A DNA stretch of 29,225 bases. Source: Stramenopiles sp. TOSAG23-6. Its lineage: Eukaryota > Sar. Position numbers and translations under genes: made by a program. The DNA is taken from NCBI GenBank assembly GCA_900128565.1, contig LT635973.1:1-29225 (forward strand), given 5' to 3'. This document shows positions 86-28,910 of this stretch, piece by piece; positions within the stretch are counted from its first letter, which is position 1; each line of letters opens with the position of its first letter. The notes beneath the pieces were generated by a model, which saw nothing but the letters and a program-made list of their open reading frames with translations, did not search any database and was not told where the DNA came from.

Positions 86-1000
86 ATCAGACACTTGCTG
101 CCAAACGGGGGAATACATCGTATGTTTGCCATATCTTACCTTTTCCATTATCTGATCATCATCATCCCCATTAAATGGGGGATTGCCTGAAAGAAGCATA
201 TACGTAATAACCCCAATAGACCACAGGTCGCAAGCAGATGTATTGTGAAAAAATATATTTTTTTTTTCAAAAATATTCGTTAGGTATGAAATTTCCTATT
301 AAAAAAATGTAGGTTGAAAATTAAATTTTGACAACGTACAGGTATAGTTTCTTTCCAAAACTTCAGGGGCAATGTAATATGATGTACCAACTACTGAAAT
401 CATTTGAGTGCTTTTCATACAATCAACTTTCTTGGAAAAACCAAAATCAATCATCTTGAGTGGACTTCCAGGTTCATTGTTTGCATAGATAAAGTTCTCT
501 AGTTTGAGATCTCTATGAACCATATTTTTATTATGTATATAGTTTAGAGACATTAGCATTTGTAGCACAGTGCTTGCAGCAACAGCTTCTGTCATGCTAC
601 CACCACCATCTAGTAAACGATCAAAGAGTTCGCCACCAGTGCACAGTTCCATAACCAAATACATATTTTGACCCTTTTCTTCGAAGGCTTCATACAGACG
701 AGCCACGTTAGGATGGTCAGTTGAAGCTAACAATGTAATTTCGTCACGTATTTGTTGCAAGCCTGTCGCACTATTTGAACCGATACGCATAACCTTTAGA
801 GCAAACTTTTGTCCATCAGACCGTCTTGTAACGATCTTTACAGTGCCAGACACACCCTCACCAAGAAAGTCTTTGTTATCAATCCCAGCATACTTTTTAC
901 GAATCTCAGTGCAGTCGCAAATATGATACTTTACAAGATTTTCGCGCATTGTTTTAGACGAATGGTGTCCAATAGCAGACACTGATGCACAAATTCCCAT
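1..1000 (-). CDS. Calcium-dependent protein kinase-like Ser/Thr kinase (partial, C-terminal part beyond left edge)
   Basis: Exons read 1000-340 and 237-86, then the gene runs off the left edge inside an intron. The start at 1000 is preferred to an upstream in-frame ATG because it gives MGICAS, a typical N-myristoylation/palmitoylation start of CDPKs. Visible kinase features are the glycine loop GEGVSGTV, the ALKV lysine, HRDLKLENF, DFGFSKK and APEVL, then CDLWSIGVI and PPFNG of subdomains IX-X. It should phosphorylate Ser/Thr targets at membranes. Calmodulin-like EF-hands, which would prove a CDPK, would lie outside the window, so a CaMK-family kinase without EF-hands remains possible. It is divergently transcribed from the NDR kinase across about 310 bp. 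Both introns are introner-type. Confidence 0.85.
238..339 (-). repeat. Introner-type intron, CDPK intron 1 (GTACG...ATACAT)
   Basis: 102 nt. The join gives NYT-S-ACDLWSIGV, matching kinase subdomain IX without gap. There is no AG between the CTAAC motif and the exon, and the first AG downstream lies about 50 nt into conserved kinase sequence. Confidence 0.92.
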
Positions 1001-1312
1001 TTGATTTAGCGGAGGAGTAAAGATAGATGTTAAATTTAGTTTGAGGACCCAAAGGTGAGAGGGGGGGAACGGCAGTTTGATTTCGAGAGTTTTCAAAAAG
1101 AATGTAAACATCAATATAATTCTGTAACCGAAAATCTCCCCTCACGGAGATTTTTTTTGGCAAATTGAATGACGGATTTTGAATAATATGATGACGTCAT
1201 TTTGTGTCAGCTGGTAGCTGGTCAACCGCAACAACTCCCGACATCGAGAGATGACATTGTGTCGCGGTCTTCTCTCTCCAGTCAAACTTAAAAGAAAAGA
1301 ACTTCAATAAGA
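1001..1312. promoter_or_regulatory. Divergent promoter region between CDPK and NDR kinase genes
   Basis: 312 bp with no supported gene. It contains the palindrome TGACGTCA (1192-1199), the classic bZIP/CREB-type site, and a short inverted repeat AAAATCTCC (1131-1139) / GGAGATTTT (1146-1154). Regulatory use is inferred only from position and motif. Confidence 0.45.
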
Positions 1313-27578: not shown

Positions 27579-27783
27579 ACTTTTCTCAATCCAGCAAGCT
27601 AAGCGGGTAAAAGTGTCTTGCCTTCAGGACTCTGGCCACAGTTTTAGTGTGCACGCGTGGCACGTGTCAATGTCATAAATTGTCACTCTATGATCAGGTA
27701 GATTTCGCCAAAATAACATCACTTAATTGTCATTTGTAGCTCATTAGTTAATTAAAATAGTAACAAAAAAACAGAATCTAACA
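27579..27783. promoter_or_regulatory. Divergent promoter region between mitochondrial protein and secreted HAD genes
   Basis: 205 bp including GGCACGTGTCA (27659-27669), an E-box/G-box sequence almost identical to that at 19006. Confidence 0.4.
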
Positions 27784-28910
27784 ATGATGCTCTTTTTATG
27801 CTTTCTTTTCTCTACTATATTAATAAATCCTTGTCAATGTTCTAGGCTAGATATTGCTTTTGACCTTGATAAATGTCTTTTTACAACCGAATATTTTGAT
27901 AATGGTATTGAAGCTGCTGTGGCACTGACAGAGATGAAAGATATAGGATATGAAGTATTCGGTCCAACGAAGTTTACAGAACCGGAACGTAGTCAAATTG
28001 TTAGAACTATGGGAATCGGGGCATTTTATTCGATTACAATCTTTCGACCATATTTATTCAAATTCTTACAGAATTTGAGTAGAGATAAAGACATTCACCT
28101 TCACATCTTTACCTCAACCTTTGACCAGGGTTTCCCTTTGCCTATAATAGAAAGAATCAAAGAAAAAACCGGTGTTTCATTTGAATTATTTTACGTCACT
28201 AGTTATACACAGAAGGATTTGAAAATTCTCGTACAGCAAATTCCTGGTGCAAGTTTGAAACGATTTTTATTGGTAGACGACAATGTGCAATCCTTCAAAA
28301 ATAGTCAATTATCAAATGGGATCCGTATCCCTGTATTTGAGCCAGGCCGAAACACACCAGATCCATTTCAACATGATACAACATTAATAAAGGTATTAAT
28401 GAAAATATTTAATCTCTCAAAGTTTAACGACGTTCGTTCAAAAAAAGGTACTCTACAATATGTTATAAACCAGTATATGTATGTTTTCATCATTAGGGTT
28501 AGGGTTAGTATATTTGTTTTTGTACCAATTTTCTTACCTAACAAATTTGGAATTTTAAAAATATTTTTTCACAATATATTTTGGCTTTTCAAACATTTCT
28601 CGAAAAACATGGGTCACAGTATACGAATAGACTACGTGAATTGAATGTACCACCTAAAAAAGCGATGAAGCATGTAGACTTCATCAAAGGTAAAGTGAGT
28701 CAAAGTTGGTTTGGCGTCAAATGTCAAAATATTCTCGACCAAAAAAATTACAACACGAAAAACATGAAAATAAAGAGTGAAGAAGCAAAAAGCTCAAAAG
28801 AAATTTGCCAACTCCATCTTCAGAAATCGTTTTTTTTTGGGTCAAGTTTCTGTGTATGGTGTGAGAAGACTCAAAGTTGTGTGACAAATGATAGAGAGTG
28901 CCGTGTGTAG
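27784..28910 (+). CDS. Secreted HAD-like (NIF/FCP-type) protein with cysteine-rich tail
   Basis: Exons 27784-28478 and 28580-28910, 341 aa. An N-terminal signal peptide (MMLFLCFLFSTILINPCQCS) is followed by a HAD fold. Motif I is FDLDKCL (D-x-D, with Cys at the position of the usual Thr), motif II HIFTSTFDQGF (Ser/Thr), and motifs III/IV KRFLLVDDN, with RPYLFKFL as in NLI/FCP1-type phosphatases. The last 25 residues (FCVWCEKTQSCVTNDRECRV) have the C-x-W-C...C...C spacing of a PSI module. A secreted or endomembrane HAD phosphatase is unusual, because FCP/SCP enzymes are nuclear. Substrate is unknown; activity is uncertain. The intron carries a telomere-like motif. Confidence 0.78.
28479..28579 (+). 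repeat. Introner-type intron of secreted HAD gene (GTATG...ATATAT)
   Basis: 101 nt, with TTACCTAAC and TTTTTTCACAATATAT. It is the only copy with a telomere-like insertion near its 5' end. Confidence 0.86.
28493..28508. repeat. Interstitial telomere-like motif inside an introner (TTAGGGTTAGGGTTAG)
   Basis: Two and a half hexamers within the introner-type intron of the HAD gene. Confidence 0.85.

Follow-up and report, generated by a model that had tools for sequence, protein, structure and literature searches.

Introner-like elements with YAY in place of AG at their 3' ends in genes of a MAST-3-like stramenopile

Few signals of eukaryotic genes are as conserved as the AG acceptor, which is nearly universal. 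Departures from it have been described, and the papers on them are cited here from excerpts. In two species of Fritillaria, 3' AT is the commonest acceptor (44% and 34%). In F. borealis, introns of the AG/AC and AG/AT types almost always have YAY (Y, pyrimidine) at the 3' end, and YAY is often present upstream of the donor as well; the major spliceosome is required for every intron class, and introner transposons are mentioned (PMC13326754). Amoebophrya carries introners, mostly with ends other than GT-AG and without fixed dinucleotides, which are supported by RNA sequencing (RNA-seq; PMC7789003). In some introner families, the element supplies one splice site and the target duplication the other (PMC9860276). 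The introns of Mirusvirus are overwhelmingly GT-AG (PMC12768974), and the SOS splicing of transposons is treated in a review (PMC13247085). Here we describe short repeated elements in genes of Stramenopiles sp. TOSAG23-6, an uncultured marine protist, that mostly end in AT and whose excision at these ends would in most copies restore the reading frame. Throughout, the window is contig LT635973.1 (our C23) of assembly GCA_900128565.1, at its full length of 29,225 nucleotides (nt).

The assembly is a partial genome of 8,027,113 bases in 408 contigs. The core motif of the elements was counted assembly-wide, and 53 copies were analysed in 223 kb, that is, in the window and 194 kb from other contigs of the same genome (L numbers are our locus labels). 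The window contains 22 intervening sequences, of which 19 are complete and do not end in AG, two are truncated by the ends of the window, and one is a GT-AG intron. A sequence-only reading of the window had named 21 loci with non-AG introns. Its observation is confirmed, but the GT-AG intron at 2483-2623 had not been set apart.

The motif GTACCTAAC, with at most one mismatch, occurs 22 times in the window against 3.76 expected, a number reached in 0 of 100 shuffles. The consensus of the 53 copies begins with the donor GTAYGTTTT, continues with a long T-rich stretch and TTTTGTACCTAAC, and closes with roughly AAATATTTTTYCAMAATAYAT. As an exact 13-mer, TTTTGTACCTAAC is found 810 and 739 times on the two strands (1549 matches in 8.03 Mb), while the same motif read backwards, used as a control, gave no match in the whole assembly. 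The donor GTAYGT is present in 34 of the 53 copies and the GTACCTAAC core in 38, in agreement with the strong branch motif claimed previously. Length is 86-113 nt in 49/53 copies, and in 49 of 52 measured cases the distance between branch motif and intron end is about 30-49 nt. Many alike copies at unrelated sites of one genome are the hallmark of introners, and the elements look like introner copies forming one repeat family. The ends of the consensus, GTAT and ATAC, are complementary over 4-6 nt and may form a short inverted repeat. In viral contigs, a 16-mer had 23 matches, none of which carried the element donor, and phage records gave no match to the one element searched.

The donor dinucleotides were GT (44), AT (3), GC (2), GA, AC, CC and TT (1 each), which agrees with the earlier description of mostly GT donors with AT, AC and GC besides; the single CC reflects a register misassignment in an NDUFAF5-like gene. 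The final dinucleotides were AT (46), TT (3), AC (2), AA and GT (1 each). The earlier observation that the introns end in ACAT- or ATAT-type sequence instead of AG is confirmed. A pyrimidine precedes the final two bases in 53/53 copies, and AY after a pyrimidine closes 48/53, although the ends were partly pre-selected. The search patterns favoured YAT ends, so that the acceptor counts are a description, and the independent evidence is the frame test. A scan for GTACCTAA[CAT] gave 59 matches in the 223 kb, 44 of them within the analysed copies. The other 15 comprised six at the edges of the window or of fetched pieces, two in a nested cluster in L044, two unresolved ones (L039 252 and 778), one antisense copy (L032) and four coding matches without element context. 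At L032 7483-7678, two introners stand head to tail, the second beginning exactly where the first stops. In contigs C2 and C4 the motif positions are mirrored internally, and in C13 and C14 they are repeated between the two contigs, which suggests amplification chimeras of a single-cell genome.

Frame was scored with a codon model trained on 87 long open reading frames (ORFs). When the ends were picked by a position matrix, with frame not used in the choice, 35 of the 40 copies that could be scored (of 45) returned to frame when cut from GT to the element end. After boundary corrections and the addition of seven copies by hand the figure was 41 of 44 scored (of 51), and with four more copies placed by eye and two uncertain ones dropped it was 45 of 48 scored (of 53); these later figures carry hindsight. 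The five unscored copies were two tandem ones with short flanks and three with weak margins. With the first AG past the branch motif as acceptor, only 18/48 were in frame, where chance is one third, and with the model limited to AGs past the element end, 13/31. The lengths of the 48 copies fall into all three classes modulo 3 (14/15/19), which indicates that the elements are not simply translated. In four copies (L034-, L039 434, L043 1967 and L045) an AG lies 4-5 nt before the used end, and the frame requires it to be skipped.

Conserved protein motifs fix a number of joints. As the sequence-only reading had proposed, this is the case for a PP1-like phosphatase and a CDPK-like kinase, both of which align ungapped to solved relatives. 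In an NDR kinase gene, CBK1 and other relatives fix the GT-AG joint without gaps at GY/PPF (a slash marks the joint), and the relative P0022 (63% identity) is gapless over the two non-AG joints at 3077-3165 and 3212-3383; the region around a further joint (2171-2281) is variable among relatives. Outside the window, joints fall within what we take to be SNF2 motif I (DE/MGLGKT, L043 1967-2063), a RING domain (CGHSL/CAPC, L033 9546-9647) and a DDX11-like protein (EAH/AVLLLGGTMQP and NLCI/LVPGG, L037); joints placed by eye lie in a presumed chromodomain (HEES/TWESE) and a presumed kelch protein (VTC/TGCVP). At L043 1967, the AG that must be skipped lies 4 nt before the used end, and a cut there would shift the frame within DEMGLGKT.

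In 35/53 copies the intron closes with the same dinucleotide as the exon before it, compared with 29.0 in shuffles (p = 0.00025). The third position shows no excess (17 matches vs 18.1 shuffled), and the duplication signal ends at 2 nt. Rare ends pair with their flanks in the same way (TT with TT in 3/3 copies, AA with AA in 1/1). An element GTAT...ATAC flanked by a target duplication of 2 base pairs (bp) is therefore likely. Neither the single repeat family nor this likely duplication had been noticed earlier.

Our preferred reading, to which we assign a probability of about 0.78, is that of an introner family with a 2-bp duplication, removed by the major spliceosome at a YAY acceptor with restoration of the frame. 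Short, probably non-autonomous DNA elements would have invaded genes across a MAST-3-like stramenopile genome, with every copy bringing a major-type donor GTAYGTTTT, the near-invariant branch motif TTTTGTACCTAAC, a U-rich stretch and the ends GTAT...ATAC. Insertion would duplicate 2 bp, most often AT. From the transcript, the major spliceosome would then excise the element with one copy of the duplication, using YAY (mostly YAU) about 30-49 nt past the branch point in place of YAG, and the original reading frame would come back exactly. The repeat family, its genome-wide core motif, the restored frame, the non-AG ends and the sense orientation of the scored copies are features of the DNA itself; from them we infer removal from RNA, the role of the spliceosome, the exact register and transposition.

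The major spliceosome is favoured by the donor, the branch motif, the orientation and the presence of a GT-AG intron in the same gene. With regard to the U2-type class, the copies carry a GT donor (44/53) and a CTAAC-type branch (GTACCTAAC, 38/53) at the usual distance, but by end counts and frame test they lack its AG acceptor. All 48 frame-scored copies read sense to their genes. The one antisense copy among the 59 core matches (L032, about 4488-4615, minus strand) stands unspliced within an open frame and is apparently translated. The sequence-only reading had suggested a spliceosome, or some other machinery, that accepts non-AG acceptors genome-wide. The genome-wide non-AG acceptor is well supported by the frame test, the motif joints and the skipped AGs; removal by the spliceosome is likely, judged from the same DNA.

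Several observations weigh against this reading. As called, three of the 48 scored copies do not keep the frame (window 20292-20391, L033 2995 and L035 5421), several boundaries were set by eye, and the acceptor composition is conditioned by the search pattern. At 20000-20103, one of the positions to which the joint can slide would read GT-AG, and a few copies are predicted to pair weakly at their ends. Protein searches with the ceramidase, NDR kinase and PP1 sequences found neither spliced transcripts nor spliced proteins from this organism, among the best 120 of 6045 matches for NDR kinase and the best 120 of 4027 for PP1. The ceramidase search returned a genomic ORF (99% identity) that reads on into the first intron, and the top identity among the PP1 matches listed was 74%. 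Models of U6 and U2 small nuclear RNA (snRNA) and a human U2AF35 query found no match in the partial assembly, and the controls were likewise blank. These absences mean little, because the incomplete assembly also lacks a close actin (the best match to the actin query has 63% identity).

An alternative that keeps the spliceosome places both cuts 2 nt upstream, in an NN-AC register. Since the duplication makes the flanking dinucleotides identical in 35/53 copies, the exact cut position is ambiguous there, and GT-AT and AT-AC cuts would yield identical mRNA in most copies. AT-flanked copies would then be AT-AC introns handled by the major spliceosome, and the excerpt of PMC13326754 describes terminal G-G and A-C pairs as isosteric. 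In the 18/53 copies with unequal flanks, however, the NN-AC register creates a stop codon once (TGA, at 22429-22519), and the GT-NN register gives no stop in the residues before the first stop of L033 2995, a stop common to both registers because this copy, as called, does not keep the frame. The GT-AG intron 2483-2623, which shares the AT/GTATGTTTT setting, begins at GT and favours the GT register. At the NDR kinase joint 3077-3165, where the GT-AT cut gives A and the NN-AC cut gives D, relative P0025 has A and not D or N; with N, D and A carried by three relatives, this residue decides nothing about the register. Overall we regard the NN-AC register as unlikely.

Removal by a non-spliceosomal machinery that reads the element ends or terminal repeats would fit the complementary GTAT and ATAC termini, the duplicated flanks and the variable end dinucleotides, and it has suspected parallels in the nonconventional introns of euglenids, the introns of Amoebophrya and the SOS splicing of transposons. 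Among eight folded elements (one containing N was excluded), the ends were paired in 1/8 minimum-energy and 2/8 centroid folds. The folds were not clearly stabler than shuffles, though (z from -2.2 to +0.3), and the terminal repeats measure only 4-6 nt. The strong donor and branch consensus, a donor in common with the GT-AG intron of the same gene, and the orientation also speak against such a machinery, and we consider it quite improbable.

Elimination of the elements from DNA, in the manner of the internal eliminated sequences (IESs) of ciliates, could explain a precise loss together with one copy of the target duplication, which resembles transposase-type excision. It is very improbable, because it should be indifferent to orientation while the scored copies are all sense; branch motifs would have no role in it, and the antisense copy is still present within an open frame. 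Ordinary splicing at an AG within the element or downstream exon is hardly credible: 18 copies do have an AG past the branch motif and before the end, but AG cuts fare poorly in the frame test and would delete or shift conserved residues of DEMGLGKT, PP1 and CDPK, as had been claimed for the first exon AG in the latter two. Equally implausible are minor U12-type AT-AC introns, for which some AT-AC readings and a partial resemblance of the branch motif to the U12 branch consensus TTCCTTAAC could be cited, since RTATCC donors occur in 0/53 copies and TCCTTRAY branch sites in 0/53 within the last 40 nt, and the branch-to-end spacing is about 30-49 nt.

Of the splicing factors named for inspection by the sequence-only reading, SLU7 is present in the assembly, as is a Prp8 fragment of 941 residues, which speaks for the preferred reading of major-spliceosome removal at YAY; U2AF35 and U6 went unmatched in the partial assembly. 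The Prp8 fragment is highly similar to human Prp8 (1918.8 bits), and an altered Prp8 in that part is therefore an unlikely explanation. A U2AF2-like protein is encoded at L077 2-1675 on the minus strand (G000:C376; 558 residues read of a 654-residue frame). It combines an RS-rich (arginine- and serine-rich) start and a U2AF homology domain at the C-terminus with two domains that both match RRM1 in the model of the U2AF large subunit. Its score of 193.3 bits is below the family cut-off of 310.3, and the same model also matches below cut-off in 2/14 control genomes, both of them bacteria. The W-containing U2AF35-binding motif was not evident in the part read. As a tentative extension, the major spliceosome of this organism may have largely abandoned AG, with the duplicated target dinucleotide serving as acceptor, set by its distance from a very strong branch site and by the preceding pyrimidine; U2AF might be rebuilt, and U2AF35 absent or altered. 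If true, this would be convergence with Fritillaria on YAU, and YAY would be the natural second-best acceptor when introners flood a genome.

In the order of the window, the elements and their genes are as follows. An introner truncated by the window start (1-85, minus strand) retains the donor side only, with the GATGTATGTTTT donor and GTACCTAAC. The CDPK-like kinase intron (238-339, minus) is in frame at NYT/SACDLW. The NDR kinase gene (plus strand) contains non-AG introns at 2171-2281 (AT..TAT), 3077-3165 and 3212-3383 (TT..ACTT, with two branch-like motifs), all in frame, and between the first two the GT-AG intron 2483-2623, also in frame, which serves as an internal control and whose joint lies within the conserved GYPPF. 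When more T-rich GT-AG introns were sought, 27 candidates came up, distributed 11/8/8 over the frame classes, near chance, and only 2483-2623 was accepted; a stricter scan for such introns found none. In-frame non-AG introns follow at 3479-3575 (plus, GC donor), at 3977-4071 (minus, AT..AC without sliding) in a sugar-transporter-like gene, and at 7802-7891 (plus) in the PP1-like gene.

The NDUFAF5-like methyltransferase has a non-AG intron at 11783-11875 (minus) with a joint placed by eye, unscored for frame because of a weak margin. Its start is uncertain, as the exon end and the introner donor are tandemly duplicated upstream (to about 11941; region 11783-11990), and two donors may compete in this gene. 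An EF-hand PPP phosphatase (plus) has introns at 14397-14491, in frame, and at 16733-16830, out of frame as first called and in frame after its 3' end was corrected by hand. Just downstream of this gene, at 17330-17620, a unit of ~90 bp is present in about three copies (by eye). An alkaline ceramidase-like gene (minus) has three non-AG introns: 17655-17758, with an open product; 17823-17919, with a GC donor, at HALWH/V, where a Pfam Ceramidase match (59-304) spans the joint; and 18027-18113, with an AC donor, in frame. The first two were unscored for frame because of weak margins.

The remaining elements are at 20000-20103 (minus), in frame, where exon 2 repeats GTAGGTTTT and the joint slides by 0 to +9; at 20292-20391 (minus), the exception, out of frame as GT..CAT and in frame as GT..AC (20294-20391); at 22429-22519, 26305-26400 and 26563-26660 (all minus and in frame, the last GT..AC); at 28479-28579 (plus), in frame; and at 29175-29225 (minus), an introner truncated by the window end, with the acceptor side only. 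Interstitial CCCTAACCCTAA repeats occur at five sites of the window (20743, 21223, 23285, 25710 and 28493), with 20743 and 25710 within ORFs and 28493 within an intron.

An 18S fragment at L031 1-564, present in another copy as well and presumably stramenopile from its look, was the only kind of match (small-subunit rRNA) given by Rfam over 226.6 kb. Among protein matches to the NDR kinase, the best is a EukProt model with the label GSMAST32; the two sequences agree over the exon stretches that they share, and we term the organism MAST-3-like on our understanding of that label. The EukProt NDR kinase model P0021 translates window positions 2163-2216 (mostly intron), 2264-2299 (half intron) and 3077-3130 (intron), drops parts of exons, and terminates inside an intron. 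These errors are apparently what enforcement of GT-AG would produce, and gene models built on the GT-AG rule would be wrong for such organisms.

The consulted excerpts of the literature on MAST single cells and SMAGs (PMC5778133, PMC8163842, PMC9903769) and of a Pelagomonas paper (PMC9481584) make no mention of such introns. Titles and abstracts on introners and on MAST and stramenopile introns, among the matches listed and with subscription papers and preprints outside the scope, reported none either. If our reading is true, this is another YAU-acceptor lineage, unrelated to Fritillaria, that combines normal GT donors with a large family of introners; why AG is near-universal, and what must change to leave it, would become testable by comparing U2AF, SLU7 and Prp8.

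The closest precedents appear to be the YAY acceptors of Fritillaria and the introners of Amoebophrya. Going by the excerpt of PMC13326754, our elements resemble Fritillaria introns in a 3' AT or AC within a YAY triplet and in AY-type bases upstream of the donor. They differ in their donor, which is AG in the major classes there and GT (44/53) here, in their strong GTACCTAAC branch motif, and in belonging to an unrelated lineage; duplicated U2AF subunits are a trait of Fritillaria, and a single U2AF2-like gene was found in our partial assembly. With Amoebophrya (PMC7789003, likewise in part) they share an introner family, direct and possibly inverted repeats at the ends, and non-canonical termini. 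The repeats there are 8-20 nt (inverted) and 3-5 nt (direct), compared with 4-6 nt and 2 nt here, and our elements, described from DNA, mostly carry GT and YAT; those of Amoebophrya are backed by RNA-seq. The nonconventional introns of euglenids are marked by a stable RNA structure that joins their ends; of the eight elements folded here, one had paired ends in its minimum-energy fold and two in their centroid folds. Other introner families, as excerpted from PMC9860276, also provide many similar introns per genome and target duplications, but they use GY-AG sites with rare GC or GA donors, while the acceptor recruited here would be AT, and sometimes TT or AA.

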